The notes under the pieces were generated by a model. That model was not told the DNA's origin. It saw nothing but the letters and a program-made list of their open reading frames with translations, and searched no databases. A stretch of DNA of 23,043 nucleotides from a virus. The translations under genes and the position numbers were made by a program. Positions 709 to 21,445 of the stretch are shown here, piece by piece. The number at the start of each line of letters is the position of its first letter. Position 1 is the stretch's first letter. The stretch lies in the IMG/VR virus record IMGVR_UViG_3300044845_000885, positions 1 through 23,043 of that record; one strand, 5' to 3'.

Positions 709-1008
709 TTACCTAGCATTTGGGTTTCCCTTGCCGGCAAAACCTAAATTTGTTTTATACATTTTTAATTGGAACATCATATCCTCTATAGCGTCTAGCT
801 GTTTTTCAGGTCTCATGTCAGCAATTGATTGCATGAAATCTTCAATTACTGATGATGCATCCACACTATCAGTTTCTCCAACTTCCATGTCCATTTGTGG
901 ACTTAAACCATTTATTGTTTCTGAATCCATATTCATATCCATTTCTATAATTGTTCTTTTAACAATTCTATTCAAATCCGATTCTGTAAGTCTAACTATT
1001 TTTTTCAT
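709..1008 (-). CDS. Tagged acidic small protein (tag type LTESDL)
   Basis: A 99-aa protein starting MKKIVRLTESDLNRIVKR-TIIE. This N-terminus is nearly the same as that of the gene at 7833-8402 and related to 16166-16486. It forms a basic amphipathic helix ending in I-I-E before MD, matching the [IL]-x-E site of T4-type prohead proteases. The remaining 77 or so residues are acidic and Met-rich, with helix-forming stretches near the C-terminus (IEDFMQSIADMRPEKQLDA). No enzyme motif is visible. By inference it is packed in the head and trimmed there. A TATTTATA motif lies 12 bases upstream of the ATG and a terminator follows the stop. Confidence 0.8.
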   Translation of the reverse strand: MKKIVRLTESDLNRIVKRTIIEMDMNMDSETINGLSPQMDMEVGETDSVDASSVIEDFMQSIADMRPEKQLDAIEDMMFQLKMYKTNLGFAGKGNPNAR

Positions 1009-1016
1009 GTTTTTTT

Positions 1017-1028
1017 TATTTATAAATA
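1017..1028 (-). promoter_or_regulatory. TATTTATA-type phage promoter candidate (palindromic copy)
   Basis: The 12-base palindrome TATTTATAAATA ends 8 bases before the ATG of the 709-1008 gene. The same TATTTATA motif precedes many other transcription units in this window. Confidence 0.55.
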
Positions 1029-1047
1029 TAGGTTTGGGTTAAAAAAA

Positions 1048-1079
1048 TTTGAATTTTATAAAACTGTTTTTTACATTTG
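1048..1079 (+). promoter_or_regulatory. Bacteroidota-type promoter for the HNH gene
   Basis: TTTG (1048-1051), a 20-base spacer, then TACATTTG (1072-1079) fits the Bacteroidota -33/-7 consensus closely. The ATG at 1086 lies only 6 bases downstream, so the mRNA would be leaderless or nearly so. Confidence 0.65.
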
Positions 1080-1085
1080 TATTTA

Positions 1086-1574
1086 ATGAACGTAGGAGTT
1101 TTAGTTTTAAATTCAGATTATTCCCCAATTAACGTAACCAGTTTTAAAAGGGGATTTAACCTTGTTTTTAAGGGTAAGGCCGAAGTTGTGCAATCAACAG
1201 GAGAACCTCTCATTACATCACTAGGTGAGTTTTTGAGACCAGTTATTATTAGACTACTTGATTATATCTCTTATAGACCAAAAAAGATAAGTGTTTCCAA
1301 GAACAGGATTATGAAAAGAGATAAGTTTCGATGTGTATATTGTGGAAACCAAAGACAACTAACTATTGACCACGTTATTCCAAAATCAAAAGGAGGATTA
1401 AATACTTGGTCTAATATGGTTACGTGTTGTTCAAAATGTAACAGTAAAAAAGGTGATAGAACACCTGAGGAGGCCGGACTAAAGTCCGTTTACCCAAAGG
1501 AGCCCACACTATTTCAAGATGTCATTAGTAGTGAGCTCCTTCAGGCTTGGGAAAATTTTAAAAATTCTTATTAG
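1086..1574 (+). CDS. HNH endonuclease
   Basis: A 162-aa HNH nuclease. The N-terminal part (VLVLNSDYSPINV, LVFKGKAEVV) is the extension found in bacterial and phage single-domain HNH proteins. The nuclease core follows: C83-x2-C86 (CVYCG), then L-T-I-D95-H96-V-I-P-K-S-K-G-G, W108-x-N110 and C115-x2-C118-N119. The two CxxC pairs should hold a structural zinc, and H96 and N110 are the catalytic metal-site residues. Such enzymes nick or cut DNA; possible roles are packaging, homing or host DNA attack, and the sequence does not decide. I chose the ATG at 1086 because the earlier TTG at 1077 lies inside the promoter box. The 3' end overlaps the converging 1558-2184 gene by 17 bases. Confidence 0.9.
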   Translation: MNVGVLVLNSDYSPINVTSFKRGFNLVFKGKAEVVQSTGEPLITSLGEFLRPVIIRLLDYISYRPKKISVSKNRIMKRDKFRCVYCGNQRQLTIDHVIPKSKGGLNTWSNMVTCCSKCNSKKGDRTPEEAGLKSVYPKEPTLFQDVISSELLQAWENFKNSY

Positions 1575-2184: not shown

Positions 2185-2195
2185 ATTTTTTTATA

Positions 2196-4304
2196 TTATT
2201 GACATTTTAATGGTGTACTATAAACAGGTGTTTGTCCTGGGTCGGAAACATTCCATCCCCAACTTCCATCGGTATTTTTTCCCAGTAGGTAAAATTTACT
2301 ATCTTTATCACTGATGAATTTTACTTGATTATCATCAACATATTTCCAAGCGCCAAATACGTCTTTGGCGTTATATGCAAATTCACATATTCCAATTCTT
2401 TTGGCTTCTTCTAATGTTAAATCAGTTTCACCAATAATGTTTGTTACGGATTCTTTCGCTTCATCCCAAAGTTTATTAGCATTACTCACTATTGAATCTT
2501 GAACGGGTTTACCTTCTTCCTTAAGAGCTTTTGCTTGTTCTTCTATCACTTTAAGAGTACTATCTAATTTTTGTTCTAATTTATTTTTTTCATTTTCGAT
2601 ATTTTGTAAAGTTTTTTCAGCTTCATTTTTGTATTCTTGTACGTCCTTTTCAGTAACCTCATCTTGTTTTAACAAATGGACCCATTGAGAAATTAAGTTA
2701 TCTATATTTGTAAAAAATAATAATCTTTGAGTTATAAAACTTTCCATTGTTGATTCGGTGTCGGCCGCGAAAGCCCCTCCGTGCTCTTTATACGTTTGTA
2801 ATAATTCTTTTTTCCAATCAAAATTTGGAACTTCATCAGGACCATATATAACTTCATTTTCAGGACTCAGTAAATCATCTGCTGCCAAATATGTTTGATA
2901 AACCAATGCATAAATTGTTGGTAAAATAAATTCTGTAAATACCATGTGTGAGACTAATATTCCTCCTGCCATGGTAAGTGCTGTAGTTCCTCTTGCATTT
3001 CTAAGTGCTAAAACTTCTTTAGGGAATCTAGGGTCGTTCCAAATCAAATACCAAATCCATCTTTTACCGGTTAAAGTTGCGGTTTCCCAAGCTCCCTTTA
3101 AGCCCTCTACAATACTTTTTGTATTAACTCCTCTTGATATTCCTCTAAAAATAAACAAAAGCGGATTCATTTCCCACAAAGCACTTGCTTCATCTGCAAA
3201 CCCTGTACCTATTGAAGTTGAAACTTTTCCTGACTTACTCTCGTAAGCTTTTTTAACTGTTTTCCACCACTCCATGAATTTTGAATTATCCTTCATTAAT
3301 TCATCATAAACTTCTTTAGAAATTAAATCTCGCTTCTTTAATTGGTCTAGAATTGACTTGGGGTCGGTGCCTGATGATTCTTTTAATGAATATATTAGTT
3401 CAGTAAGTCTTGCCAACATTCTTTCATTTACTTCAGGAGTACCTTCCTCAATGTTTTTAGTCATCAATTCTGTTATTTCATTAGAAAGTTGTTCAATTTT
3501 ATCAACTATTGATTTCGTACCCCAACCCTCGTCAGGTAAAGTTTTACCAAATAATTTAGCGATTTGGTCTCTCATGGCAGATAAAGCATTCTTTACATCC
3601 CTTGACCATGTATCATACCATCTAGTCATCTCACTGTACCAAACCCCAATTGACGGAAGGTCAACATCTGCCCATTCATACACCGCATCTTTAATACTTT
3701 TACTTGCGGCTTTAGTAAACTTTTTAGCCGATGACGTTGTGATTACTTTTTCCGGTATATCGTCAAGTTTTAATTTAGAATTTATAATTGCCGCCATATC
3801 AGGGTCGTCCTTAAACGTGTCAGCAATTTTTGTTTTTACCTCGGCCATTTTATCAACCAACTCATCATGTAATTTTGGGTCTAATTTTTTTAATTCGTCA
3901 AAATTAGTAGTCTCTACAGTGTCATTTATACTTTTTATAGTTTTTCCTAACTCATCATCAATATTAGAGGAAATTCCATCATAAAGCATGTCTTTATAAG
4001 TTTTATCATTAGTAGAAGATACTACGTTATCGATAATTTTATACCAATCTATTTCAGGATAATCTGATATTGATTTTGTCCCACTTTTAATATCATCTAA
4101 AATATTAGTTGCCTCATCAAAACTTTTTCCAGTAGATTCAATAGCGGAGGTCATCGTATTTTTTAGAGCGTTGTCTTGAGTTTTCCAGTAATCGGTAATT
4201 AGATTTTGAATAAATTTTCTAACTAAGGAGGCCTGTTCAACTATTAAGTTGGACCCCATTATTTCTTTTATCCTATTAATTTCTTCTAAAATTTGTTTAT
4301 CCAT
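2196..4304 (-). CDS. Large tagged protein with membrane segment, candidate ejected virion protein
   Basis: A 702-aa protein with the tag MDKQILEEINRIKEIMG-SNLIVE-QA; the I-V-E site falls after residue 23. The tag aligns closely with those of the PPK2 at 17160-18272 and the protein at 20441-21445. Residues 30-400 are mostly polar helix. A strongly hydrophobic stretch at about 439-472 (TTALTMAGGILVSHMVF onward) should cross a membrane, probably once or twice. A coiled coil covers about 551-600, and a short compact C-terminal module (about 655-702) contains FYLLGKNTDGSWGWNV. It heads a transcription unit with TATTTATA 4 bases before the ATG. Size, coiled coils and a membrane segment behind a head-targeting tag suggest an internal protein ejected with the DNA, but no homologue is recognised. 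Confidence 0.8.
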   Translation of the reverse strand: MDKQILEEINRIKEIMGSNLIVEQASLVRKFIQNLITDYWKTQDNALKNTMTSAIESTGKSFDEATNILDDIKSGTKSISDYPEIDWYKIIDNVVSSTNDKTYKDMLYDGISSNIDDELGKTIKSINDTVETTNFDELKKLDPKLHDELVDKMAEVKTKIADTFKDDPDMAAIINSKLKLDDIPEKVITTSSAKKFTKAASKSIKDAVYEWADVDLPSIGVWYSEMTRWYDTWSRDVKNALSAMRDQIAKLFGKTLPDEGWGTKSIVDKIEQLSNEITELMTKNIEEGTPEVNERMLARLTELIYSLKESSGTDPKSILDQLKKRDLISKEVYDELMKDNSKFMEWWKTVKKAYESKSGKVSTSIGTGFADEASALWEMNPLLFIFRGISRGVNTKSIVEGLKGAWETATLTGKRWIWYLIWNDPRFPKEVLALRNARGTTALTMAGGILVSHMVFTEFILPTIYALVYQTYLAADDLLSPENEVIYGPDEVPNFDWKKELLQTYKEHGGAFAADTESTMESFITQRLLFFTNIDNLISQWVHLLKQDEVTEKDVQEYKNEAEKTLQNIENEKNKLEQKLDSTLKVIEEQAKALKEEGKPVQDSIVSNANKLWDEAKESVTNIIGETDLTLEEAKRIGICEFAYNAKDVFGAWKYVDDNQVKFISDKDSKFYLLGKNTDGSWGWNVSDPGQTPVYSTPLKCQ

Positions 4305-4308
4305 AGCT

Positions 4309-4316
4309 TATAAATA
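4309..4316 (-). promoter_or_regulatory. TATTTATA-type phage promoter candidate
   Basis: The minus strand reads GTATTTATAAGCT immediately before the ATG at 4304, a gap of 4 bases. It separates the 2196-4304 unit from the 4332-6381 unit. Confidence 0.5.
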
Positions 4317-4331
4317 CTCTCAATTTTAACT

Positions 4332-6131
4332 TTATTTAATGTCCGGTTCGCCAATTCCTTGTAATTGTAATAAACCAAGTGTGTCGGATGGCGCCTCCTC
4401 TAAAAACTCATTAACTTCTTCAATTTCTTCCTCAGTTGGGCTATCTGCAAGTTCATCACTTGATATTTGAGGATTATTTTTTTTAGCCTCTGCAATTCTT
4501 CTTTTAAGGTCAATAAATGTTGGTAAAACATCATTTTCGAGATATTCTTTCATTGTAACAGTTTGTCCGGCCGAATTTTTAACTTCTTTATTAAAGAATT
4601 TTTTATTTGCAACATCCTCAATAATTTTTTCATCTCCAACAACTTGAGCAAATGCCTCAGGGCTATCAATCATTAGTTGAGCTAACTCCTCACTAGATTG
4701 TTCAGGATAATTCGCATCTATATTGTTAATCATCCTTTGGACTACCTCAGTACTTGGTTCTTTACCATAATATGCTTTATACATATCACTCAAAACATAT
4801 GCTACCTCAGGTCCGTATGCAATTAAAACAGGAGACATTACAATTGGTAGTTTAAATCTAACATTTTTCTTAATTGTCTCCCATAATAGTCCTCCCTTAC
4901 TTTGTCTTGTAACTTTGGCAATTTTAGAATCCATAGCGCTCATGACTCTTGATATTGGAGAATTTTGACTTTCAGCAAATTCCTTTACCGCATCTTGTAA
5001 TTCTTTTCTATCTAAAACATTTCTTAAATTTTTTTGTTCCACAGTACTTAATCCTTCCATATGTTTCACAAAGTCATCGTAAGATTTTGGTTTTTTTGAT
5101 AGAAAATGTTTAAGTGCTGCTTCTTGAGCAAAATCGTCAAGCCCCCCTGTTAAAAGTTTTGATATTCCAGGGAATTCAACGCCTGCCGAAAGTAAACCAA
5201 CAAAAATATCAACCATAGCGGCCTTTGTATCACCTTCTTTAAAGTGATAATGTGCTGATACTAAATTAACACCTAAATCTATGGCAGTTGTTATAAATAA
5301 TCTTGTTCCTAAAGTAGCTCCAAAAGTTAATGATGTCCCCAAAGTAGGTATCATAAGGACAATTGATAAAATAGTTCCCCCCCATTGTATAACGTTGCCC
5401 CACTCATCCCAAAAAATTTGGTCTGGGGCTTTAAATTGGATGTATTTTTTCTCGTCATAGGTTTCCACACACCCTCCTTTAGCTCTATCAAAAACACAGT
5501 ATCCCCAAGCTCTCCAACCTCTAGATGGGTCACTTTTAACATCATCAATTAAAACTCTTTTGAACCAAAATTCCTCGTCACAAGAAATTCCTGAGTCAAA
5601 CCTAACGTCAGCGGGTAACGGTATTTCTGACCAATCATTATTTTCATCATCCCATTTTGGTATCATTGTGCCGGCGGGTATTACAAATGCACTTAAAACA
5701 TCTGCAAACTGACTTAACCAAGATTCTGTAGGATAATATAATTTAGTATCATCTTTAAAATTTAAAACTACACCAGAACTATTAAATTTATAAGGTACTT
5801 GACCATTAAAAGTTGCATTCATTTGAGCAAAAGTTTGATAATACCCTAATTCATCTTTTTTGGCGGTTTTTGTCCATCTAAGTCTTGTAAGACCCCCTTT
5901 TGATATTTTAGTTCCTTTAGGTACCCTTATTGGTCCATTAATTCCCTCATATTGGTCAAATTGAGGTTTCCATTCCTCATCTTTTGCAAAGTCTGTCAAC
6001 CCCACTATCGGTGGTGATATCAGCCACGGTTGCTCAATAATTATATTATGATTTTCAGATAAAGTTTTTTTGGTGTCATAACCCATCAAAAGTTTAACTC
6101 TGTGTAATAATTCTTGTTGTTCCCTATTCAT
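4332..6131 (-). CDS. Large tagged protein with hydrophobic central region, candidate ejected virion protein
   Basis: A 599-aa protein from the ATG at 6131, which lies one base after the stop of 6133-6381. An earlier in-frame ATG at 6155 is less likely because the tag-like sequence starts at MNREQQELLHRVKLLMGYDT; it runs to I-I-I-E33 before QPW. The N-terminal half has W- and D-rich beta-type sequence with Cys residues (SCDEEFWF, WGYCVFD, GGCVE). The middle (about 255-335) is hydrophobic and Gly/Ala-rich (GGTILSIVLMIPTLGTSLTF, then AIDLGVNLVSA and VDIFVGLLSAGVEFPG), as in pore-forming or membrane-inserting proteins. A third apolar stretch lies near VMSPVLIAYGPEVAYVL. The C-terminus is acidic. 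With the 702-aa neighbour it could make up a DNA-ejection or membrane-channel set; this is inference from architecture. Confidence 0.8.
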   Translation of the reverse strand: MNREQQELLHRVKLLMGYDTKKTLSENHNIIIEQPWLISPPIVGLTDFAKDEEWKPQFDQYEGINGPIRVPKGTKISKGGLTRLRWTKTAKKDELGYYQTFAQMNATFNGQVPYKFNSSGVVLNFKDDTKLYYPTESWLSQFADVLSAFVIPAGTMIPKWDDENNDWSEIPLPADVRFDSGISCDEEFWFKRVLIDDVKSDPSRGWRAWGYCVFDRAKGGCVETYDEKKYIQFKAPDQIFWDEWGNVIQWGGTILSIVLMIPTLGTSLTFGATLGTRLFITTAIDLGVNLVSAHYHFKEGDTKAAMVDIFVGLLSAGVEFPGISKLLTGGLDDFAQEAALKHFLSKKPKSYDDFVKHMEGLSTVEQKNLRNVLDRKELQDAVKEFAESQNSPISRVMSAMDSKIAKVTRQSKGGLLWETIKKNVRFKLPIVMSPVLIAYGPEVAYVLSDMYKAYYGKEPSTEVVQRMINNIDANYPEQSSEELAQLMIDSPEAFAQVVGDEKIIEDVANKKFFNKEVKNSAGQTVTMKEYLENDVLPTFIDLKRRIAEAKKNNPQISSDELADSPTEEEIEEVNEFLEEAPSDTLGLLQLQGIGEPDIK

Positions 6132-6132
6132 T

Positions 6133-6446: not shown

Positions 6447-6779
6447 TTAAAACGGGACTAATTCGGGTAAACTATTTTCATTTTCTGAATAATATTCAGT
6501 TAAAAAATTCTTTAACTCGATTTTGTCAATTTTTACCTCTTCAGAATCCATATCCTCACCAAGAATTAACTCATCAGTTTCCTCTTGATATTCATAAAGA
6601 AACTCATTAGATTCTGCAAAATCAGACTCTAGAATAAAATACCCATAATCTTTTGTTGTTGATAATTCAAACTCAGCTTCTCTCATTTGAGTCTCGGGGT
6701 CGCCCTTCATCCTAAAACTTACCTCAATAGTCTCCGTTACTGGACTATAATAGTAGTCTATTATCTCCTTTACTTTCAT
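6447..6779 (-). CDS. Acidic hypothetical protein
   Basis: A 110-aa, strongly acidic protein rich in Glu/Asp and aromatic residues (FLYEYQEETDELILGED), predicted mixed beta/alpha, with no membrane segment, tag or known motif. Its start overlaps the stop of the zinc-ribbon gene as ATGA, which points to translational coupling and a shared role. A DNA-mimic or protein-binding function would fit the charge, but nothing in the sequence proves it. Confidence 0.75.
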   Translation of the reverse strand: MKVKEIIDYYYSPVTETIEVSFRMKGDPETQMREAEFELSTTKDYGYFILESDFAESNEFLYEYQEETDELILGEDMDSEEVKIDKIELKNFLTEYYSENENSLPELVPF

Positions 6780-7258
6780 ATACGATTACTCAACTTCCTA
6801 AACCAATCAAGTGACTCATTGATTTGGTTATATACTTGACCTTTCTTAGATTTTAAATAAATCCCCTCTCCAATTTCTTCCATAGAATATTTCATTCCCG
6901 CTCCTCCACATTCACACATTTTACCTTCATTCATCTCACCACCGCAAGCTTCACACACATATTTTTCTTCCATGTAACCTTTAGTCCCGCACTCACACAT
7001 TACACCTTCATAAAGTCCACCGCAATCGTTACATTTTTTCTTTGTTTTTTTATTGATACCAATATTCTTGTATTCAGAAACTTCACCTTCGTTATTTACT
7101 GTAATACCTTTTTCATCTAAAGCTAAATTTTCTATATAAAGTGGTGTTTCTTTTGAAACTTTAGATTCCATAGTTTGATACCCATCATAGATACTTCTTT
7201 GTTTCTCTCTGATTGATTTTTTATCTTCTTCTGATATGTTTAAAAAATATTGATTCAT
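6776..7258 (-). CDS. Double zinc-ribbon protein with tag-like N-terminus
   Basis: A 160-aa protein. The N-terminus FLNISEEDKKSIREKQRSIY matches the pattern of the tag at 19847-20416 (I-x-E-x-x-K-x-x-I-x-E-x-[HQ]), although no clean [ILV]-x-E-Q site follows. The middle holds two tandem metal-binding units with identical spacing, C76-x2-C79-x8-C88-x-C90 and C102-x2-C105-x8-C114-x-C116 (CNDCGG...MCECG; CEACGG...MCECG), expected to bind one zinc each. The C-terminal part ends in LDWFRKLSNRI. It is the first gene of a two-gene unit, with TATTTATA 15 bases upstream. Zinc ribbons usually bind nucleic acid or protein; the partner is unknown. Confidence 0.8.
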   Translation of the reverse strand: MNQYFLNISEEDKKSIREKQRSIYDGYQTMESKVSKETPLYIENLALDEKGITVNNEGEVSEYKNIGINKKTKKKCNDCGGLYEGVMCECGTKGYMEEKYVCEACGGEMNEGKMCECGGAGMKYSMEEIGEGIYLKSKKGQVYNQINESLDWFRKLSNRI

Positions 7259-7281: not shown

Positions 7282-7323
7282 TATTGGTATTTTCATTTTA
7301 CAGAAATTACCATATAATTGTTT

Positions 7324-7836
7324 ATGACTTTAGAACCATTTCAAATTGATTCCCCCGTATTTGAGGACAATCGGGGATGTTTTGCTCCAGTTAAACTTTT
7401 TGGTGATTGGATGCAGTCTAACATTAGTATTAATGATAATATATTCACTTTTAGAGGATTACATCTACAAAGTGGTAGACACAAACAAACTAAAAAACTC
7501 TCAGTAATTAGAGGAGCGATTATCGATTTTGTGGTCGATTTAAGACCTGAAACATTTGGAGACGTTTATCAGTTTATGTTAGAGCCAGGTCAGGCAGTCT
7601 TTGTTCCCAACCACTGCGCTCACGGATTTTTGACATTAAAATCGGGGACTATTGTAAATTATCTTGTAGACAATGACTACAATAAAGATAGTGAAGTTTG
7701 TATTAAGTGGGATTCTGTACCTGATGTTAAAGAAACAATTACAAAATACATTTCAGGTTGGGACTTACAATTAACTATAAGTAGTAAAGACGAAGAAGGT
7801 ATAACACTTGAAGAATATAGAGAACAGATAATTTAA
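7324..7836 (+). CDS. dTDP-4-dehydrorhamnose 3,5-epimerase-like protein (RmlC family)
   Basis: A 170-aa cupin-fold sugar epimerase, slightly shorter than typical RmlC (about 180). Family motifs occur in order: N16-R17-G18 near the start, F43-R44-G45-L46-H47-L48-Q49 with H47 at the catalytic-base position, K58 and R63-G64, D72-L73-R74, the P95-N-H97-C-A-H100-G-F loop, and Y113/Y119 in NYLVDNDYN. RmlC inverts carbons 3 and 5 of dTDP-4-keto-6-deoxyglucose on the way to dTDP-rhamnose. No other rhamnose-pathway gene is present, so it probably acts on a host pool or a related sugar, perhaps to change the host surface or a phage glycoconjugate. The ATG at 7324 is preferred over an upstream TTG (7318). 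Its TAA shares bases with the stop of the converging gene. Confidence 0.85.
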   Translation: MTLEPFQIDSPVFEDNRGCFAPVKLFGDWMQSNISINDNIFTFRGLHLQSGRHKQTKKLSVIRGAIIDFVVDLRPETFGDVYQFMLEPGQAVFVPNHCAHGFLTLKSGTIVNYLVDNDYNKDSEVCIKWDSVPDVKETITKYISGWDLQLTISSKDEEGITLEEYREQII

Positions 7837-8402
7837 ATCATTCCCACATCAATTCCATCCAAACAGGTGGAAACTCCAGCTTCATCTTTGAACTTTTCGA
7901 GAGCTGAGGCAACGTCTATCCACTGAATTGATGTTTCATCGTCTAACCAACTATACAAATCATTTTTGCCAGGTCTTTCACTATTTTCGTAATTATAATT
8001 TACTGCAACCTTACAAAAATCATCAAGAGTTGATATTTTTTCTAGTAAACTCAAAGTACCTGTTGAAAATAAACCTTCCATACTTTTATAAAGGTCTTGT
8101 ATCAAGTATCTTTGAGTCGGAGTTAACCCTCCCGAATATTTTGATTTGTTCTTATTACAATACGTGAAATAGCCTTTTACTTGCATTTCATAGGGGGTAG
8201 GATTTTCACATTCAGACATAGAGCCATCCAATTCGGTTCTAGGTGTTTTACCTGAAAATTCATTATATTTTGATGCTCTAGGGATTTTAGATAAATTTAT
8301 TCTGCTAGCCGCCCCCAAAGGACCTGATATTGGTTGTTCCGATATTACTCTTTTAACTATTCTAACTAAATCTGATTCTGTTAGTCTTATAACTTTTTTC
8401 AT
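7833..8402 (-). CDS. Tagged protein of unknown function (tag type LTESDL)
   Basis: A 189-aa protein beginning MKKVIRLTESDLVRIVKR-VISE-QP, almost a copy of the tag at 709-1008 also at DNA level (roughly four in five bases match by eye over 54 bases). The I-S-E site lies at residues 20-22. The mature part is soluble, with four Cys residues (SECENP, TYCNK, DFCKV, STCLD) and several short helices. It looks like a small compact domain, but I do not recognise it. It follows the DUF4314-like gene by 13 bases and is probably co-transcribed. By inference it is a head cargo protein. Confidence 0.75.
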   Translation of the reverse strand: MKKVIRLTESDLVRIVKRVISEQPISGPLGAASRINLSKIPRASKYNEFSGKTPRTELDGSMSECENPTPYEMQVKGYFTYCNKNKSKYSGGLTPTQRYLIQDLYKSMEGLFSTGTLSLLEKISTLDDFCKVAVNYNYENSERPGKNDLYSWLDDETSIQWIDVASALEKFKDEAGVSTCLDGIDVGMI

Positions 8403-9078: not shown

Positions 9079-9726
9079 ATGGAAATTACAATTTCTGAAG
9101 ACATTCAAAGGAAACTAATTACAGAATCACTGATGGGTGATTTGTCAAAAGTTTTGTCAAATATTTCTCAAATCGGTAAAGAAAATTTGAGAGATACTCA
9201 AAAGATGATGAAATTTGATTTAAAATTTCTTCTTACTTGGAGTGCAACTATTGGGGGGTTTATGGGACCACTTACTCAGTATATTAAAGACCAAAATGTT
9301 GAAATAACTGACGCAAATATAAATCTAATAGTTGTTGGGGTTTGTGCAACTCTTTTCTATAATAATGAAAAATTGGTTGCCGAAATAATTTCAAAGATTA
9401 AGGAAAAAGGTTTAATACCTGTTTTTGAATCAGCTCTTCAAAAGGGGGATGAATTAAGAAGTGCTCTTATTAGATTTTTGGAGTCTATTGGATTAACTGT
9501 CGGAAATTTATTTGCAATTGCAAGTTTTACATTTTTAATTCCAATAATCGGCATTTTAAATACCTATGCAACAAATGGTGAAATTACACCTGAAAGTATT
9601 CAAGAAATATCTGAAAGAATTGCGATGGCCGGTGTTACAGCTTTAAGCGCAACTACAATAAGAAATTTTTTAAAGAAGTTTTTTGCTAAATCCGAGAAGG
9701 GTCAAAGCGAAGAACAGCATTCTTAA
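9079..9726 (+). CDS. Multi-pass membrane protein with tag-like N-terminus
   Basis: A 215-aa protein. The N-terminus MEITISEDIQRKLITE-SLM carries an I-T-E site at residues 14-16 and resembles the neighbours' tags. Apolar stretches lie at about 50-69 (FLLTWSATIGGFMGPLTQYI), 81-95 (NLIVVGVCATLFY), 137-161 (LTVGNLFAIASFTFLIPIIG) and 180-195 (AMAGVTALSATTI), indicating three or four membrane passes. The C-terminal tail is basic then polar (KKFFAKSEKGQSEEQHS). Possible roles are a holin-like protein or a virion membrane protein used in DNA entry; the tag favours the second. The 3' end overlaps the converging metallopeptidase gene by 41 bases. Confidence 0.8.
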   Translation: MEITISEDIQRKLITESLMGDLSKVLSNISQIGKENLRDTQKMMKFDLKFLLTWSATIGGFMGPLTQYIKDQNVEITDANINLIVVGVCATLFYNNEKLVAEIISKIKEKGLIPVFESALQKGDELRSALIRFLESIGLTVGNLFAIASFTFLIPIIGILNTYATNGEITPESIQEISERIAMAGVTALSATTIRNFLKKFFAKSEKGQSEEQHS

Positions 9727-10950: not shown

Positions 10951-11580
10951 TTACCAAAAACCAGGATATGTTTTACCACCCCAAAGGTGTCCGTATCTGT
11001 TAATTCTGCAAGCCCAATAACCAGCAGTCATTCTGTCTTTCTTTTTTTCACATTGGTGACGTGAGGCAAATGCCTTTCTTGCCTTTGCATTTGATACTTT
11101 TGCAGTTAATCCTCCGCTTACATCACCAAATGAAATCTTTTTTATTTTCCCTGTGGATGGGTTTTTAACATAAACAACATATTTTTTTCCACCACCTGTG
11201 TTTCTCATTGGCCTCCCAACTTGAACTTTTCTACCCTTATATTCGGCCTCAGTTAATTCTTCCTCAATTACAGGAATATCCAAATAAACTTCTTTACCAT
11301 TAGTTAACTGAACTTTTTTACCCAAATCACTTTCAATTAATTCAAGGTCTCTACCACTAAGTTCAATCATTTCATTTTCATAAAGATATCTAACTTCATT
11401 AATTAAATCAAAGAAAGCATCTGAGTGACTTCTGAAAATATTATTAAATAATGGAATTTTATTATCTAAGTGGTATTGTAAATTTTCAGTTATTTCAACA
11501 TTTTCAGTTAATACCATAGATTGTTTAATATTGTCGGCTTCGACCAATATTTTCTTAATAAGAGAATTAATGTTTTTCAT
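10951..11580 (-). CDS. Tagged protein with basic C-terminal phage module
   Basis: A 209-aa protein starting MKNINSLIKKILVE-AD, with an L-V-E site at residues 12-14, closely matching the tag of the peptidoglycan hydrolase at 16508-17173. Further LTE motifs (VLTE-N, EITE-N, ELTE-A) lie in the N-terminal half and could allow repeated trimming. The C-terminal 90 residues form a Lys/Arg-rich module: KKYVVYVKNPSTGKIKKISF, then ARKAFASRHQCEKKKDR, then GYWACRINRY. Modules with FGD...ARK.F..RH.C.....YW.C occur in tailed-phage proteins of unknown function. Its start overlaps the previous stop as ATGA. Confidence 0.75.
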   Translation of the reverse strand: MKNINSLIKKILVEADNIKQSMVLTENVEITENLQYHLDNKIPLFNNIFRSHSDAFFDLINEVRYLYENEMIELSGRDLELIESDLGKKVQLTNGKEVYLDIPVIEEELTEAEYKGRKVQVGRPMRNTGGGKKYVVYVKNPSTGKIKKISFGDVSGGLTAKVSNAKARKAFASRHQCEKKKDRMTAGYWACRINRYGHLWGGKTYPGFW

Positions 11581-15497: not shown

Positions 15498-16169
15498 ATG
15501 AATTTAGAACTATCACCCGAAGAAAGAAAAATAATCAAACAATTTTTTGTATACATTAAAAGTAATGGAGCCGACACCGCATCAATTGACGCTAATTTTG
15601 AATGGGGGAACCCATCATATGTTGGTGGGATGTATGGTGACAATGGAAGAGTAATTCCAAAGTTCCCTCCCGTAGAACCAATTATAGAAAAGATTTTTGA
15701 TAAAGTAGATACGGATGAATTTGAAGATAACTTTCATTCCGGCGAAAATGATGTAGAATTTTTTAGTGTAGACCTTATTTTTGACGCAACCACCAAAAAA
15801 ATTATTGTTGAATGTAATTATTCAACCCCTGATGAGGAAGAAGCACTTGATGAAAGTGATATTGATGATATGGATATTTTCAAAGAATATACCGATAGAG
15901 GGGTATCAGAAATAATTTGTACTTACAATGGTGGTGGTGATAGTGGATATGTTGATGGAGATATGTCAGTCGATGGTGAACGAGAAAATACTCCTGCCTT
16001 TCTTGAGGATTTGTGTTATGATGCTTTAAGTAATTTTGGTGGTTGGGAAATAAATGAGGGTTCCCAAGGAAATATTGTTTTTAACTTGTCCGATAAAACA
16101 AGAACAGTAAACCACTCTTGGAATACGGAAGAGAATCATAGATTCAGAGTTCTTGAAATGGAAGTTTAG
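15498..16169 (+). CDS. Acidic protein resembling DUF6878
   Basis: A 223-aa acidic protein from the ATG at 15498, which follows a TATTTATT motif by 3 bases; an earlier in-frame ATG at 15450 would lie in the previous gene. The C-terminal half has EIICTYNGGGDSGYVDG, then FLEDLCYDAL and GGWEINEGSQGNIVFNL. The GSGDSG-like and GGWEINxGxxG motifs recall DUF6878, known from phage and bacterial proteins without known function. The N-terminal half contains a short Asp/Glu-rich run. The stop overlaps the stop of the converging gene by 4 bases. Confidence 0.7.
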   Translation: MNLELSPEERKIIKQFFVYIKSNGADTASIDANFEWGNPSYVGGMYGDNGRVIPKFPPVEPIIEKIFDKVDTDEFEDNFHSGENDVEFFSVDLIFDATTKKIIVECNYSTPDEEEALDESDIDDMDIFKEYTDRGVSEIICTYNGGGDSGYVDGDMSVDGERENTPAFLEDLCYDALSNFGGWEINEGSQGNIVFNLSDKTRTVNHSWNTEENHRFRVLEMEV

Positions 16170-16486
16170 AAAACCTGAATTGTTCTCTGTGGTCTGTCAT
16201 CACCAAAATTAGGACAGAAATAAACGTTATTTCCATCGTGATAGATAGTTCCACCAACCCCATTTGGGATTTTGTGTTTTTCGTGGAATTTTTCACCTAA
16301 GTCTATTTGGTAATTTCCGTCATGTACTAAAAAACATAAATTTTGATATCCACAAGTATATTGTTGGTCTTTATTTTTATGTTTCATAAACTCATCGAAT
16401 GACATAACATAACGAGCATTTTCATTCATAAGTCTTTTAACGACTTTATCTAATTGACTTTCTGTAAGTTTAATTTCTTTTCCCAT
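16166..16486 (-). CDS. Tagged small protein (tag type LTESDL)
   Basis: A 106-aa protein beginning MGKEIKLTESQLDKVVKR-LMNE-NA, a third member of the LTES-type tag family, here ending M-N-E before NA rather than a strict [IL]-x-E. The mature part has three Cys (YTCGYQNLCFLV; VYFCPNF) and a His/Gly-rich beta region (KIPNGVGGTIYHDGNNVYFC). Function unknown. TATTTATA lies 4 bases before its ATG, separating it from the upstream peptidoglycan hydrolase gene. Confidence 0.75.
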   Translation of the reverse strand: MGKEIKLTESQLDKVVKRLMNENARYVMSFDEFMKHKNKDQQYTCGYQNLCFLVHDGNYQIDLGEKFHEKHKIPNGVGGTIYHDGNNVYFCPNFGDDRPQRTIQVF

Positions 16487-16490
16487 ATTT

Positions 16491-16498
16491 TATAAATA
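16491..16498 (-). promoter_or_regulatory. TATTTATA-type phage promoter candidate
   Basis: The minus strand reads AATATTTATAAAAT directly before the ATG at 16486, a gap of 4 bases. Confidence 0.5.
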
Positions 16499-16507
16499 TT
16501 GAGTATT

Positions 16508-17173
16508 TTATATTTTAATAATTTTAGCCATTGATGTATCAGGTGTAAATTCCGCATTACCTAACGATTTTAAAATATCATTAATATATTTTGTCGTATC
16601 ATTTTCATTTGGTGGAGCATAAGTATACATAAATTGTTTAAGTGTTGGGATTTCTCCCTTATCATATCCTGGTGCTGAGCCATAGTCAGGCATATTACCA
16701 TTTGACCACTTTATTATTTTTTCCTCAATTAGTGCTTTTGCACCTAAACAAGGAGAACTAAATTTTGCAAATCTACCGGTTGAGCCATCTAATTTGGTTT
16801 CTTTTGTTGCTTTACTATCTATTGATTTTAATCCATCATAATAATCTAAATTACCAGGATTATTATTTCTATAACTTCTACTACCTTTACCATTATTCAT
16901 ATTTTTAACCCATCCTTCTTTATTTGCAATAATCTTAGCTAACTTAAATTCAGAAGTGTTTGGTCCATACCCTGAACAAGAAATAACTGAATCCAAATTG
17001 TCTTTATTGAAATCTACTTTTTGTTCATCATCTAAATCTATTGCAATCTTAGGTTCCCCTTGAGTTGCAACATAGGTACTTGATGCTGGTGCAGTAATAT
17101 CTATCTTTTCAGGTTCAATTGGCTCAACTGTCTGCTCCATTAAGATTTTTTGTAAAATATTAATTGTCTTCAT
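16508..17173 (-). CDS. Tagged RNNNPGN-type peptidoglycan hydrolase candidate
   Basis: A 221-aa protein with tag MKTINILQKILME-QT (L-M-E at 11-13), a Pro/Thr-rich linker (about 14-60) and a C-terminal lysozyme-like region. That region has KIIANKEGW (Glu86 a possible catalytic acid), YRNNNPGNL (101-109), GRFAKFSSPCLGAKALIEE (about 133-151) and TYAPPNENDTTKYI (184-197). The RNNNPGN, AxFxSPxLGxxAL and YAPPxENDT motifs occur in phage structural peptidoglycan hydrolases, which open a local hole in the wall for DNA entry. The head-type tag would place this enzyme inside the virion. It overlaps the end of the PPK2 gene by 14 bases. Confidence 0.75.
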   Translation of the reverse strand: MKTINILQKILMEQTVEPIEPEKIDITAPASSTYVATQGEPKIAIDLDDEQKVDFNKDNLDSVISCSGYGPNTSEFKLAKIIANKEGWVKNMNNGKGSRSYRNNNPGNLDYYDGLKSIDSKATKETKLDGSTGRFAKFSSPCLGAKALIEEKIIKWSNGNMPDYGSAPGYDKGEIPTLKQFMYTYAPPNENDTTKYINDILKSLGNAEFTPDTSMAKIIKI

Positions 17174-18272
17174 TTGATTCAGGTCTTAAAACGGTCATTG
17201 CTTCAGGGAATTCCTTATCCAATAACTCTTCATTTTTATTTTCGTAAGGGATGGTTTGTAACACATATCTAATGGCATTCAACCCCGATACTTTTTTATC
17301 ATTAGCGTCTAAAACAATCCAAGGATGGTTCATTGTTGATGTCTTATCGAATAGTCTTTGTTTAAATTCTGTGAACCTTTCCCACATATCTTGCATCTTT
17401 GCGTCATTTGGAGAATATTTCCAGTATTTGAGAGGAGATTTTTGTCTCATTTCAAATCTTCTTGATTGTGTTTCCTTGTCAATCGAAAACCATAGTTTAA
17501 ACAGGTAATCTCCTTGTTCAACTAACTCATTTTCAAAGTTTTCAACGTTCTCCATAAAATTTTCATACTCTTCTTCAGTACCGTAACCCATAACAGGTTC
17601 AACAAGACCTCGATTATACCAACTTCTGTCAAAAAAGTTAATCATACCAGGTTTAATATGTTTTTTGTATCTACCGAACCAGTCCTGTCTCTCCTCAGGT
17701 GATGGAATACCAAGAGCAATAATGTTATAATATCTTGGATTTAAGTTTTCTGTGAATTTTTTAATCGTGGACCCTTTTCCAGCCGAGTCCCTACCTTCAA
17801 ATACAATAATAACTGTTTTACCTGTCTCAATTAGCCATTCTTGTAGTTTTAGGAGCTCTACTTGTAAGTAATATAATTCTTTTCTAAATATTTTTTTCTT
17901 TAGAATTGATGGTTCCTCAGGTTCAAAACTATAATCATCTTGCTCGGGCTCAATTTCATAGGAATCAGGTTCTCTATCCTTTAAAGAACTCAAAACCTTT
18001 TCAAAATACTTAACAATTGAATTATATTTATCTCCTTTTTTAAGTAATGTATTTCTAACTCCATGTTCTAGTAAATCAAAATTGATAATTTGGTCATCGG
18101 CAAGTTCAATAATCTGATTAAGAAGTAACTCAGCCTCCTTTTTAAGTAAATTATTGGCATTTAAAATTGTTTGAATTGACTTTATATATTGCTCACTAGG
18201 TTTTGCCATTTCATTAACAGGCAACCCAATCATTTCTCTTATTCTTTCTACTTCAGTAAGAAGATTTCTCAT
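17160..18272 (-). CDS. ppk2: Polyphosphate kinase 2 (PPK2) with N-terminal phage tag
   Basis: A 370-aa protein. Residues about 128-345 form a complete PPK2 domain: LYYLQVELLKLQEWLIETGK, Walker A FEGRDSAGKGSTI (158-170, K166), NPRYYNIIALGIPSPEERQD, Walker B and signature FFDRSWYNRGLVEPVMG (213-229), and a lid RRFEMRQKSPLKYWKYSPND (271-290). PPK2 transfers phosphate between polyphosphate and nucleoside mono- or diphosphates, and could feed ATP/GTP or dNTP synthesis. The first 125 residues are an added region: the tag MRNLLTEVERIREMIGLPVNE-MA, which aligns with the tags at 2196-4304 and 20441-21445, then a helical spacer and an acidic linker. All key residues look intact. It leads a leftward unit with the tagged hydrolase; TATTTATA lies 14 bases upstream. 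Confidence 0.92.
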   Translation of the reverse strand: MRNLLTEVERIREMIGLPVNEMAKPSEQYIKSIQTILNANNLLKKEAELLLNQIIELADDQIINFDLLEHGVRNTLLKKGDKYNSIVKYFEKVLSSLKDREPDSYEIEPEQDDYSFEPEEPSILKKKIFRKELYYLQVELLKLQEWLIETGKTVIIVFEGRDSAGKGSTIKKFTENLNPRYYNIIALGIPSPEERQDWFGRYKKHIKPGMINFFDRSWYNRGLVEPVMGYGTEEEYENFMENVENFENELVEQGDYLFKLWFSIDKETQSRRFEMRQKSPLKYWKYSPNDAKMQDMWERFTEFKQRLFDKTSTMNHPWIVLDANDKKVSGLNAIRYVLQTIPYENKNEELLDKEFPEAMTVLRPESNEDN

Positions 18273-18284
18273 ACAAAAACTTTT

Positions 18285-18386: not shown

Positions 18387-18403
18387 TATTTTATTTTCAT
18401 TGT

Positions 18404-18431: not shown

Positions 18432-18474
18432 GCCCTGTTCATAAATAAACCGTAAATAAATTAAATAAAAAAAA

Positions 18475-19305
18475 ATGAAAAACACAAAAGTTTACAACGA
18501 GTTAGTTCAAAAAATGAGAACATTCTTCCAATCAAAAGGATTTAAAGAAGTTCCAACACAATCAAGGCTGTCAATTTTAGCAGCATGTGAAAATCCACAT
18601 TCAATTACAACATTTGAATACAAAGGAGAGGTTTGGCCATTACCACAAACAGGTCAAATGTGGTTAGAATACGAATTACTTAAAAACCCTGAGTGGGAAG
18701 GAGTATATTGTATATCAACATCATATAGACAAGAAAAAAATCCAATCCCAGGTCGACACGAATTAATCTTCCCAATGTTTGAATTTGAATCAAAAGGGAC
18801 AATGAAAGACTTATTGAAGCTTGAAGAAGAATTACTTGAGTATCTTGGGTTCGATGAACCAGTTAATACAACTTACGAAGGAGTTTGTGCCGAATATGGT
18901 GGAGTTTCAATACTTGAGGATGAGCATGAACAAAAAATGTGGAAAGAAAAAGGTTCAGTTGTATCACTACAACATTTCCCCCTAAGAACCAATCCATTTT
19001 GGAATATGCAACACGGAACAAATGGAATCTTCAATAAAGTTGACGTTATTATGTATGGTCAAGAAACCATTGGGTCTGCTGAAAGAAGTTGTGATGTTGA
19101 AAAAATGAGAGAGATGTTTTATACAATTGAAAATGGTGGGTATTCGGCTAAATTATTTGAACTTTTTGGAAAGGAGAGAGTTGAAAAGGAACTTGAGGAA
19201 TTTTTATCATTTGAATTCTTCCCTCGTTATGGTGGTGGAATTGGGATGACTCGTCTTGCAAGAGCATATGAACTTATGAAACAAGAACAATTACAAGAAA
19301 TTTAA
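18475..19305 (+). CDS. Class II aminoacyl-tRNA-synthetase-like enzyme lacking the anticodon domain
   Basis: A 276-aa protein that is only a class II synthetase catalytic core of the Asp/Asn type. Motif 2 is STSYRQE...GRHELIFPMFEFE (82-105), then VIMYGQETIGSAERSCD (191-207) at the site of the G-x-E...R amino-acid/ATP element, and motif 3 GGGIGMTRLARAYEL (253-267). There is no N-terminal OB-fold for anticodon binding. Stand-alone cores of this kind include AsnA-like asparagine synthetases and EpmA-type enzymes that aminoacylate protein rather than tRNA. Database names are usually 'amino acid--tRNA ligase-related protein'. Substrate cannot be read from the sequence, though aspartate or asparagine is likely. 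No tag. The 5' leader (18432-18474) is A-rich without a clear promoter box. Confidence 0.8.
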   Translation: MKNTKVYNELVQKMRTFFQSKGFKEVPTQSRLSILAACENPHSITTFEYKGEVWPLPQTGQMWLEYELLKNPEWEGVYCISTSYRQEKNPIPGRHELIFPMFEFESKGTMKDLLKLEEELLEYLGFDEPVNTTYEGVCAEYGGVSILEDEHEQKMWKEKGSVVSLQHFPLRTNPFWNMQHGTNGIFNKVDVIMYGQETIGSAERSCDVEKMREMFYTIENGGYSAKLFELFGKERVEKELEEFLSFEFFPRYGGGIGMTRLARAYELMKQEQLQEI

Positions 19306-19311
19306 AAAAAA

Positions 19312-19344
19312 TTTGGAGCGGTGAGTAACTTTACCATATATTTG
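19312..19344 (+). promoter_or_regulatory. Bacteroidota-type promoter for 19365-19799
   Basis: TTTG (19312-19315), a 21-base spacer and TATATTTG (19337-19344) match the -33/-7 pattern, about 20 bases before the ATG at 19365. TATATTTGTATTC is the same 13-mer as at the 410-622 gene. Confidence 0.6.
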
Positions 19345-19364
19345 TATTCTAAATAATAAACACT

Positions 19365-19799
19365 ATGAAAAATACAATTCTCGCCGTTTCCTTTTTTCTT
19401 TTGACTATTGTTTCACATTCTCAAGTAGTTACCGTATCAACAAAAGGATTACAAGTTTACTTTCGTCCAAATAATATGACTCTACAAGAATGCCAAGAAA
19501 AAAATCTTGTGGACCACAGATATTTTGGTAACGGTGATTGTAAATATATTTTTGATTTGGATAAAAAAGTTTTTACTATGAAACCTCTCTACACTGATTG
19601 GGTTTTTACATGTAAAATTACAGAATTAAAAAAAAATGGTAATGAACTTAATGTTACTACTGAACTCGGTACTAAGTACATGATTACTGACAAAACCGAT
19701 ACTAATGAAAAAATCTTTTTGATTGAGTATTTTGACCTACCTAGTCAAGTCGAGGGTAGATTTGCCAAAGAAGAAGACTTTTCAGTTAGTATTAAATAA
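19365..19799 (+). CDS. Secreted hypothetical protein
   Basis: A 144-aa protein with a type I signal peptide (MKNTILAVSFFLLTIVSHSQ, cut near residue 20). The mature part is beta-rich, with Cys residues near QECQEKN, GDCKYIF and FTCKITE. It has its own host-type promoter and a terminator, so it is an independent unit. A periplasmic or outer-surface role, such as changing the infected host's envelope or blocking superinfection, is possible but nothing confirms it. Confidence 0.75.
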   Translation: MKNTILAVSFFLLTIVSHSQVVTVSTKGLQVYFRPNNMTLQECQEKNLVDHRYFGNGDCKYIFDLDKKVFTMKPLYTDWVFTCKITELKKNGNELNVTTELGTKYMITDKTDTNEKIFLIEYFDLPSQVEGRFAKEEDFSVSIK

Positions 19800-19800
19800 A

Positions 19801-19826
19801 AAAAGGGGACTAATGTCCCCTTTTTT
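19801..19826. terminator. Bidirectional terminator
   Basis: AAAAGGGGAC-TAAT-GTCCCCTTTT is a perfect 10-bp stem with a 4-base loop, with A and T tracts on either side. It can end both the rightward 19365-19799 and the leftward 19847-20416 transcripts. Confidence 0.85.
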
Positions 19827-19846
19827 AATTTACAAAAGTTATATTT

Positions 19847-20416
19847 TTAGGATTGACATCCATTCAATTTATTAATCTGTGTTTGTAAAACTTTAGTAAC
19901 CGCATTGTAGAAAATAGTTTTTCCCAAGTCAATTTTTCCTCCTCCCAAATTTTGAAACAACGTACTATAATCTTCATTTTTTGTAGCCACCCTATCTAAA
20001 GCGGCAATATTTTTAAATCCATCACACAACATTTTATTTTGCCCAACTAATTGAGCCGCCGCGTCAACGTAACTTCTTAATAAACGATAAACTGTAGTAG
20101 TAAAATTAGGCTGACCCGCTTCAGTTGGTGCCGCTGGTAATCCTTTAATTCCTAAACTTGCTAAAAAACTACTATCAATTGTACCATCGTTTATGGTTAT
20201 AAATTTGTTAACATCTTCGTCACTAGTAATTATGGGTAATTTATATTTAACTCCATTTGCCGAGGTGAATGGCTCTCTTTGTGAGGCTGTTTGAGTTGTT
20301 GCTGCCGGCGCAGTTGCTTGACCCTGCTCGCTTAAATAATTTCTCTTGGTTGCATTTTCATGCATCTCAATGATTCTTCTTTTTTCTGATTCGTCTATTT
20401 TAAATAATTGTTTCAT
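19847..20416 (-). CDS. Tagged protein of unknown function (tag type IDESEK)
   Basis: A 189-aa protein with N-terminus MKQLFKIDESEKRRIIEMHE...YLSE-QG; the L-S-E-Q site lies at about residues 28-31. An Ala/Thr/Gln-rich linker (TAPAATTQTASQ) leads to a helical domain with two Cys (KMLCDGF and LNGCQS at the very end). No known enzyme motif. It is the second gene of a unit, 24 bases after the stop of 20441-21445, and shares a bidirectional terminator. By inference it is a head cargo protein. Confidence 0.75.
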   Translation of the reverse strand: MKQLFKIDESEKRRIIEMHENATKRNYLSEQGQATAPAATTQTASQREPFTSANGVKYKLPIITSDEDVNKFITINDGTIDSSFLASLGIKGLPAAPTEAGQPNFTTTVYRLLRSYVDAAAQLVGQNKMLCDGFKNIAALDRVATKNEDYSTLFQNLGGGKIDLGKTIFYNAVTKVLQTQINKLNGCQS

Positions 20417-20440
20417 ATTCTATTTTTATTTTATTTTATT

Positions 20441-21445
20441 TTAAGTCATATTAACACCTGGGTCTAATACAGAAGGTTGTTTAACTTCCATATCTTTTGT
20501 AGGTGTAACCGGCTCTTCCATATCTTTTGTAGGTTTTGAGCCGGACATTTTTAATTTATTTCTTTGTTTAAGTTGTTTTATACTTCTACTTCTTAATCCA
20601 TAAATTGCAATATATGTTTTTGTTGACTCATCCCAAAATTCATCCCTTTTGTAAGGATGTTCGGCCTTAGTTGCGTTTACTGAGGATTGTCTTCTCGCTT
20701 GATTATATTCCAAATTTCTTACAGGATAACATTCCTCATCAGCCAATAATTCATTAGCCTCACACCAATCATTAATCATTATATCAATTTCAGATTGTTC
20801 AGGTTGTTCAGATTGTACAGGTTGTTCTGTTTTATTTTGTATTTCTTTATCTCCTGAATCTTGTGAATCGCTAGGAATATCCGTCATTTTAAATCCGAAA
20901 TTACCAATATATCCAGCAACAAATCCTCCTTTAGGCATCTGCGGGTAAGTATACGAGTCAAAATTTTGAACGGCTCCAAATTCTTTTGACTTAGTAATAA
21001 GTTCGTTCATCGGTAAATTTGATGCAACTCCATCAACTCTACCTTTATTTTCAAAAAAACCAAAAGTATTAAATGTTTTTCCATTCATTTTATCTTTTCC
21101 TTCGGCTAATTGGTCAAAAACTCCTTGAGCACTACTTGAGGTTGCTGTGAACCAATCGGTAGGTGGTGTATAAGTGCTTTTGATTTTATATTTTTCAGGT
21201 ACTGGTTGTCCGGGTAACCATCCGTCTTTCATTGCATTAGAAATGTTCATATTATCAGCGGCAGTCCCTGATGAATTAAATTCATTTTTTACAGATAGCC
21301 AATCACCTCCAGCTAATTCAACATTCTTTCTAATTGGAAGTTTTGGATTGTACTTGTACCCAGATTGTTCAGAAATGACGACACCTCTTTGATGTTCAAA
21401 AAGATATTTCATTCTAATCAATTCTTCATTTAAAATTTCACCCAT
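20441..21445 (-). CDS. Tagged protein of unknown function (tag type ILxExxR)
   Basis: A 334-aa protein from the ATG at 21445: the tag MGEILNEELIRMKYLFEHQR continues to VVISE-QSG, with an I-S-E-Q site near residues 24-27. Longer upstream ATGs (to 21556) would run into the divergent gene and lose the tag position. The first 190 residues form a Gly/Asn-rich, soluble domain (FFENKGRVDGVASNLPMNEL); a Gln/Glu/Ser linker with QPVQSEQPEQSE repeats follows, then a Cys-containing helical region (INDWCEANELLADEECYPV). The C-terminus has two PTKDME repeats. No catalytic motif is recognised. Its TATTTATA motif lies 18 bases upstream. Confidence 0.75.
   Translation of the reverse strand: MGEILNEELIRMKYLFEHQRGVVISEQSGYKYNPKLPIRKNVELAGGDWLSVKNEFNSSGTAADNMNISNAMKDGWLPGQPVPEKYKIKSTYTPPTDWFTATSSSAQGVFDQLAEGKDKMNGKTFNTFGFFENKGRVDGVASNLPMNELITKSKEFGAVQNFDSYTYPQMPKGGFVAGYIGNFGFKMTDIPSDSQDSGDKEIQNKTEQPVQSEQPEQSEIDIMINDWCEANELLADEECYPVRNLEYNQARRQSSVNATKAEHPYKRDEFWDESTKTYIAIYGLRSRSIKQLKQRNKLKMSGSKPTKDMEEPVTPTKDMEVKQPSVLDPGVNMT
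20485..20534 (-). repeat. In-gene direct repeat (PTKDME)
   Basis: A 20-base sequence (CTTCCATATCTTTTGTAGGT) occurs at 20485-20504 and 20515-20534, exactly 30 bases apart, encoding two PTKDME units near the C-terminus of the 334-aa protein. Confidence 0.8.

Follow-up and report, generated by a model that had tools for sequence, protein, structure and literature searches.

Shared N-terminal tags as probable capsid-targeting propeptides on a large cargo set in an uncultured large phage of Bacteroidota

In phage T4, the prohead protease gp21 cleaves after L/I-x-E and the propeptides of the internal proteins (IPs) are 10-19 residues long, the targeting information of IPIII lying in its first ten residues (PMC9026906). 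Such capsid-targeting sequences (CTSs) have been put forward as a means by which T4-like phages could package proteins of many kinds (PMC9026906; PMC3012670). In phage P1, an N-terminal signal directs the large accessory protein DarB into the head, and 30 residues target a reporter to the capsid (PMC9024508). Here we describe the 23,043-base viral fragment IMGVR_UViG_3300044845_000885 (the window), beyond which no further sequence of the genome was available. Its source is an uncultured large phage of Bacteroidota, and about a dozen of its unrelated proteins begin with one of a few shared N-terminal peptides (the tags). We consider it very probable that these tags are T4-type capsid-targeting propeptides, removed by a gp21 homologue, on an unusually large cargo set in bS21-encoding Bacteroidota phages.

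Like the CTSs of T4 IPI-III and Alt, the tags are short N-terminal peptides on unrelated accessory proteins and end in [L/I]-x-E, and Peptidase S77, Gp23 and an acidic gp22-like scaffold are found in tag-bearing relatives. Unlike those of T4, they are mostly longer (13-30 residues), often lie between two motif sites, belong to one of several classes that can replace one another, and are borne by tens of genes in a genome rather than by four, with cargo that includes a polyphosphate kinase 2 (PPK2) and several kinds of peptidoglycan hydrolase. The six Dar proteins of P1 have no recognisable common N-terminal sequence, whereas the present tags are shared and recognisable in sequence. In SPN3US and phiKZ (gp245/gp175 proteases), a gp21-like cut after a three-residue motif ending in E likewise removes N-terminal propeptides, two of which are 20-24 residues long; however, their motif is A-x-E, nine substrates were found, the propeptides mostly exceed 100 residues, and the available part of that report describes no shared tag (PMC10052503). 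In genome organization, the closest described phages are the freshwater Bacteroidota bS21 T4-like phages, which have the same gene order with an opposite-strand bS21 gene near the portal and prohead protease genes, and a similar genome size and GC content (Chen et al. 2022, PMC9723584). Word searches of that paper brought up nothing on N-terminal tags of this kind; the paper suggests only that bS21 itself could be packaged. New relative to these systems are the scale, the several interchangeable, sequence-recognisable tag classes, the cargo (PPK2 and varied cell-wall hydrolases) and the phage group.

Relatives of the window were located by a search with its tagged PPK2 and by an LTESDL DNA pattern in viral contigs. 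Together with the window, 13 related records (G numbers below) of 36 to 400 kb each were examined, G002 being covered to 400 of 412 kb, which gave 2,312 open reading frames (ORFs) with starts assigned by simple rules. The PPK2 of G018 is 91% identical to that of the window; the related records appear to belong to the bS21-encoding Bacteroidota phage group, and the window does so only through its relationship to G018. Five iterated hidden Markov models (HMMs), for types a-d of an earlier note on this DNA and for type e (MKYLITEsQ) from the relatives, were applied to in-frame ATG starts with a threshold of 10 bits. The HMMs were trained on the genomes in which the tags were counted, and the 4,846 internal Met windows used as controls lay outside the training. 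Such a profile search tagged 324 of the 2,312 ORFs. At or above the threshold were 153 (a), 58 (b), 48 (c), 104 (d) and 126 (e) genes, against 2, 1, 3, 1 and 0 control windows, respectively; the counts are not independent of one another because many of the relatives share common ancestry.

In the window, 11 of 38 ORFs scored 19-54 bits with HMMs a-d (Table 1). The earlier note had listed 13 ORFs with shared N-termini, all of which are present at their coordinates and, except for 9079-9726, lie on the minus strand. Eleven were recovered, and the remaining two, 4332-6131 and 9079-9726, turned out to be weaker relatives. N-termini resembling that of 4332-6131 in G018, G015 and G001 retain L[NT]EN..[VI][IV][SN]EQ, and homologues of 9079-9726 starting with MKIIISESQYKKILLEE or MDILITESQQKLLITE score as type e. 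The cargo set, already described as very large from the window, proved larger than the window suggests: in one record of 294 kb, as many as 51 of 376 genes are tagged.

The tags are nearly phage-specific by the searches made. A degenerate DNA pattern for MKKxxRLTESDL matched at least 120 stretches in viral contigs and just 2 in bacterial and archaeal genomes totalling 257 Gb, at least one of the 2 having phage-like neighbours. On a short contig of a metagenome-assembled genome (MAG), one stretch has another tag-like ORF and a gene resembling those of sigma factors next to it, and the assembly also has Peptidase S77; the other is a lone tagged gene in a Prevotella MAG. The latter (L250:6395-6955) starts with MKKLIRLTESDLHKIIKESMKRILAE/TYNS (here and below a slash marks the predicted junction) and has a sub-threshold match to an ADP-ribosyltransferase family (E 0.006), which recalls T4 Alt. 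A tblastn search with a 25-residue tag against phage records gave no match, the query being too short to inform, and no description of the tag string was found in the open-access literature. The cultured relative Flavobacterium phage immuto (NC_055915), the closest isolate that was found, is a distant test case: it has gp21 and a predicted major capsid protein (MCP) junction IVSE/A, but carries only a few weak d-like tags, MKKSxLxxxIKExL, at 102294, 102880, 113188 and 123355, which are possibly its own version of the d-type tag.

As noted earlier for the window, most tags end in [ILV]-x-E, after which the bodies are unrelated. A hydrophobic-x-E motif is in the expected window in 74/82 type-a, 52/53 type-b, 37/43 type-c and 45/47 type-d tags (V, M or F being allowed at P3 and, for type a, also A or T), and the parts after the tag fall into ~154 body families by blastp. 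The junction is sharpest in type a, with the core LTESDLxxIVKRVIxE: the final Glu of [IV]-x-E is kept in 60 of the 72 tags of the profile, and the information content falls from 2.8 bits at this Glu to 1.2 and then ~0.5 bits directly after it. Of the type-a tags, 94-96% have [ILVM]-x-E in windows 12-24 and 16-28, a share that falls to 12-23% farther downstream. Several tags of the G002 lineage are a few residues longer, and their ends are mostly still [IL]-x-E or hydrophobic-x-E. In the family of 6776-7258, found in most relatives, the best-kept site is an early [IV]-[STK]-E-like one. Type e mostly has the early ITE ([IL]-T-E) alone; it could be a class apart, in which the propeptide is very short. 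In the predicted model of the window PPK2, the tag forms a helix at residues 2-14, and junction residues 16-23, between two helices, have a predicted local distance difference test (pLDDT) score below 50. As judged from sequence, the tag is a self-contained module whose end is well marked.

This module is exchanged between bodies. The MFFSNLEQ family carries a type-a tag in G026 (TLQE/ERTENYMFF) and a type-d tag in G007, G015 and G027 (VIKE/QSDRYMFF), with the junction at hydrophobic-x-E for both types. Homologues of 10951-11580 also differ at the N-terminus (type a in G027_58, type d in G018_52 and G001_71), and further tag switches between orthologous bodies were seen (G013_94 and G015_166; G015_1 and G020_18), the switches as a whole being of a with d and of a with e. 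The tag of 19847-20416 recurs with 21 of 22 residues identical in two proteins of G018, whose aligned bodies are ~40% identical to its own over short stretches. Among paralogues, tag DNA is ~70% identical and the downstream DNA ~0.30, near random. Within the tags, codon positions 1 and 2 are 0.76 identical and position 3 is 0.54, with the same codon for 60% of identical residues; the greater likeness at positions 1 and 2 points to selection on the peptide. Recent copying of a tag cassette at the DNA level was ruled out by the ~70% DNA identity and mixed codons of the paralogue tags.

A prohead protease, whose absence would refute head targeting according to the earlier note, was sought in the relatives, and Peptidase S77 (T4-type gp21) was found in 18 of 28 tag-bearing records; the Gp23 major capsid protein was above the cut-off in the same 18. 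The records with neither are all at most 127 kb and may be fragments. In relatives, the gene order of the head region is portal, opposite-strand bS21, gp21, acidic scaffold and MCP, so that the gp22-like scaffold gene adjoins those of the protease and Gp23. The bS21 of G010 matches PF01165 (E 8.5e-10), and short opposite-strand ORFs lie at the same place in most of the relatives shown. The scaffold has a net charge of -74 to -78 and 14-18 [ILV]-x-E sites; the mean tag charge is +2.6 for type a and +1.3 for type d. The predicted MCP junction is LINE/A in eight bS21-type records (LINE/S in G007) and LIYE/A in G002, of the same form as the tag ends.

Tagged genes also share an upstream element. 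TATTTAT lies within 45 nucleotides upstream of 207/324 tagged and 329/1728 untagged genes, and in 2% of random windows; where the upstream gap is at least 40 nucleotides, the numbers are 116/125 and 195/770 (P 3e-49). The reverse complement ATAAATA is not significantly enriched upstream of tagged genes, so the TATTTAT signal is more than AT-richness. The T4-like late promoter TATAAATA, tried as the shared signal, was weakly enriched, and the strand-specific TATTTAT was stronger. Portal, gp21, gp22, sheath and tube are among the untagged genes that have TATTTAT. Of ~50 genes listed for the 192-235 kb region of G001, which encodes glycosyltransferases, sigma-like and other non-structural proteins, only five have it, and four of these five start tag-like (MKFTNILTNIILE, MRLLNCIKNIIKEE, MFEFDKIIKGIISE and MEFKIFKKLNEE). 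TATTTAT is a putative promoter and an independent sign of late, virion-linked expression of the tagged genes. It sits 4-6 or 12-18 nucleotides from the start codon (for example at window 1009-1050, 16487-16510 and 4305-4320); the two distances could mean that some late transcripts are leaderless and others have a short leader, or that the element acts in translation together with the phage bS21.

The cargo was compared by family scans of 104 tagged proteins and 100 untagged G001 proteins. Few tagged proteins match any family among the 25 commonest listed, so that rare cargo matches may be missed. The matches are to PPK2, GH24 lysozyme, LysM, M23, GH19-like, YkuD, PG-binding and transglycosylase-like proteins, to a head-protein family and, in one case, to a ParB-like protein, whereas the untagged proteins match polymerase exonuclease, helicase, sheath, portal, glycosyltransferases and methyltransferases. 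The tagged set matches 35 PHROG families, the named ones being mostly peptidoglycan hydrolases; for untagged proteins the number is 130, among them polymerase subunits, helicase, sheath and methyltransferases. By these matches, the cargo looks like ejected enzymes. The window PPK2 retains GRDSAGKGS and FDRSWYNR, and its predicted model matches solved PPK2 structures; tblastn matches of this protein to phage records lie mostly over the catalytic part, and none spans the tag. No earlier report of a polyphosphate kinase as virion cargo was found in the open-access literature, and such a likely cargo would be new. In G001, G015 and G010, PPK2 and GH24 lysozyme form a single protein with a single tag (for example L173:8908-10692, compared with the separate window genes at 16508-18272). 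G007, G020 and G023 encode the lysozyme separately, with a d-like start of its own that scores above threshold only in G007; in G019, a protein of similar start occupies the lysozyme slot. In the window, a transglycosylase-like protein fills this slot, and its d tag, MKTINILQKILME, resembles MKIIDILQKIILKE. The 22 related MKYLITEsQ proteins across the records form a paralogue family; their clusters (~110 residues, variable bodies; G001:C1:3113-9168 and parts of G015, G007 and G018) are possibly a rapidly evolving cargo family.

The reading of the tags as removable head-targeting peptides, put forward in the earlier note, is thus supported by shared tags with a modular [ILV]-x-E junction matching the gp21 consensus, the exchange of tags among orthologous bodies, the presence of gp21 and gp23 in relatives, the MCP junction, the upstream element shared with virion genes, near phage specificity and the type of cargo. 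By analogy with T4, we infer the docking partner, tag cleavage, virion presence and injection as follows. Late in infection, tagged proteins would be made alongside head and tail proteins. The tag has some 13-30 residues and, in most cases, an [IL]-x-E both near its start and at its end. It would often form an amphipathic helix and would dock on the prohead core, made up of the acidic gp22-like scaffold. A gp21-type serine protease would then cleave after [ILV]-x-E and free the mature protein inside the head, from which it would leave with the DNA into the host. That a tag has two motif sites agrees with the redundant cleavage reported for phiKZ-type phages (PMC9026906). The cargo would be a large exchangeable accessory set, polyphosphate kinase and peptidoglycan hydrolases among them.

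Alternatively, the tags could be docking peptides into or onto the virion (head, neck or tail) that are retained, with [ILV]-x-E merely a helix end. The late-type upstream element and the virion-like cargo suit any virion role, and some members are large, tape-measure-like or head-module proteins. However, the conserved Glu and the abrupt loss of conservation coincide with the published gp21 consensus and with the junction that these phages have in their MCP; moreover, the longer G002-type tags mostly keep this end, and tags of unequal length join the same body at an [ILV]-x-E-like motif, which makes retained peptides improbable. The earlier note had further suggested that different tag types may mean different docking sites or timing, that is, a sorting code with a destination or release time for each class. 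The types do vary in how long and how charged they are and in how many motif sites they have, and some families hold one type (the PPK2 proteins b, the 6776-7258 family c). This suggestion is nevertheless unsupported, because several orthologous bodies change type between phages, suggesting interchangeable function, and no difference in destination is apparent in the present data; we regard it as unlikely.

Two further explanations dispense with a protein signal or with a common function. The shared N-termini could be a translational or regulatory feature of the 5' ends of late mRNAs, in favour of which the genes have TATTTAT upstream in common. Bacteroidota rely little on Shine-Dalgarno sequences, which counts for such a feature. 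So does the bS21 that these phages encode for themselves (PMC9723584). This explanation has very little chance of being right given the conservation at the protein level seen in the codon positions, and the untagged late genes (portal, gp21 and gp22) that have TATTTAT without a tag. The common N-termini could also be remnants of gene duplication with fast-diverging bodies and no shared tag function, and true paralogue families such as the MKYLITEsQ proteins exist; but the body families include the unrelated folds PPK2, GH24, LysM, M23 and GH19-like, and the near-random DNA downstream of still similar paralogue tags is at odds with such remnants, so we hold this origin to be most improbable.

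Several points weigh against capsid-targeting propeptides. The 23-kb window has no protease or capsid gene, and its members 4332-6131 and 9079-9726 are under the HMM threshold. The junction motif is missing from the expected place in 8/82 type-a and 6/43 type-c tags, and type e, with just an early [IL]-T-E, would have a propeptide of ~7 residues and is of weaker status. Tags of types b and c have hardly any basic character, so that electrostatic docking does not account for every type. Beyond length and end, no obvious sequence likeness to the T4 IP tag MKTYQEFIAE was seen (ipI-III from NC_000866; no formal comparison made), and a search of the open-access literature found no virion proteomics of tag-bearing phages.

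If capsid targeting is correct, the injected set of a large uncultured phage group would likely be readable from sequence, gene by gene, which usually needs virion proteomics of a cultured phage. The many tagged families without assigned function would be candidates for counter-defence or host take-over factors, as T4 internal proteins proved, and the swappable tags could act as packaging signals for protein delivery into Bacteroidota. More tentatively, and with the odds rather against it, ~40-50 different proteins might be loaded per virion via these interchangeable tags. No phage would then have had a larger injected set inferred from its sequence so far, and the enzymes in it (polyphosphate kinase and several cell-wall hydrolases) would act at entry; a sorting code of tag classes, with different docking positions or timing, might come in addition.

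Table 1 Tagged ORFs of the window and their predicted tags
ORF	Position	Strand	Predicted tag/following residues	Evidence
Type a, 99 residues	709..1008	-	MKKIVRLTESDLNRIVKRTIIE/MDM, residues 1-22, bases 943-1008	HMM a 45.6 bits; TATTTAT upstream; short body, no function assigned
Type d, 208 residues	1558..2184	-	MNLKSKIRKKLVE/SQT, bases 2146-2184	HMM d 18.7 bits
Type b, 702 residues	2196..4304	-	MDKQILEEINRIKEIMGSNLIVE/QAS, bases 4236-4304	HMM b 42.3 bits; weak tape-measure likeness, phrog_167 E 1.9e-8
Looser b relative, 599 residues	4332..6131	-	MNREQQELLHRVKLLMGYDTKKTLSENHNIIIE/QPW, bases 6033-6131	HMM b 6.6 bits, sub-threshold
Type c, 160 residues	6776..7258	-	MNQYFLNISE/EDKKSIREKQRS	HMM c 54.1 bits; 12 family members tagged
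Type a, 189 residues	7833..8402	-	MKKVIRLTESDLVRIVKRVISE/QPI, bases 8337-8402	HMM a 53.8 bits
Variant (e-like), 215 residues	9079..9726	+	MEITISEDIQRKLITE/SLMG, bases 9079-9126	2.8 bits, sub-threshold
Type d, conserved cargo, 209 residues	10951..11580	-	MKNINSLIKKILVE/ADN, bases 11539-11580	HMM d 25.0 bits
Type a, conserved cargo, 106 residues	16166..16486	-	MGKEIKLTESQLDKVVKRLMNE/NARYVM, bases 16421-16486	HMM a 48.4 bits; 9 orthologues
Type d, peptidoglycan-hydrolase-like, 221 residues	16508..17173	-	MKTINILQKILME/QTV, bases 17135-17173	phrog_7182 tail injection transglycosylase E 6e-13; phrog_873 E 1.1e-12
Type b, polyphosphate kinase 2, 370 residues	17160..18272	-	MRNLLTEVERIREMIGLPVNE/MAK, bases 18210-18272	PF03976 E 7e-74; Foldseek PPK2 5llf E 9.4e-21
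Type c, 189 residues	19847..20416	-	MKQLFKIDESEKRRIIEMHENATKRNYLSE/QGQ, bases 20327-20416, then Thr/Ala/Gln-rich linker	HMM c 52.5 bits
Type b, 334 residues	20441..21445	-	MGEILNEELIRMKYLFEHQRGVVISE/QSG, bases 21368-21445	HMM b 35.0 bits; TATTTAT upstream

The tagged start of the last ORF in Table 1 is the ATG at 21445, the program-listed 20441-21556 beginning too early. The predicted structure of 16166-16486, made from five sequences, is of moderate confidence (pLDDT 68). Adjoining the PPK2 gene is that of a class II tRNA-synthetase-like protein (18475-19305; PF00152, E 3e-15), whose place is kept in several relatives. The window further contains a tRNA-Met gene (CAT anticodon) at 309-383, an HNH endonuclease at 1077-1574 and a dTDP-sugar epimerase at 7318-7836, and the ORF at its edge, 22501-23043, encodes a highly charged, coiled-coil-like protein with (R/Q)QDxRQ-type repeats.

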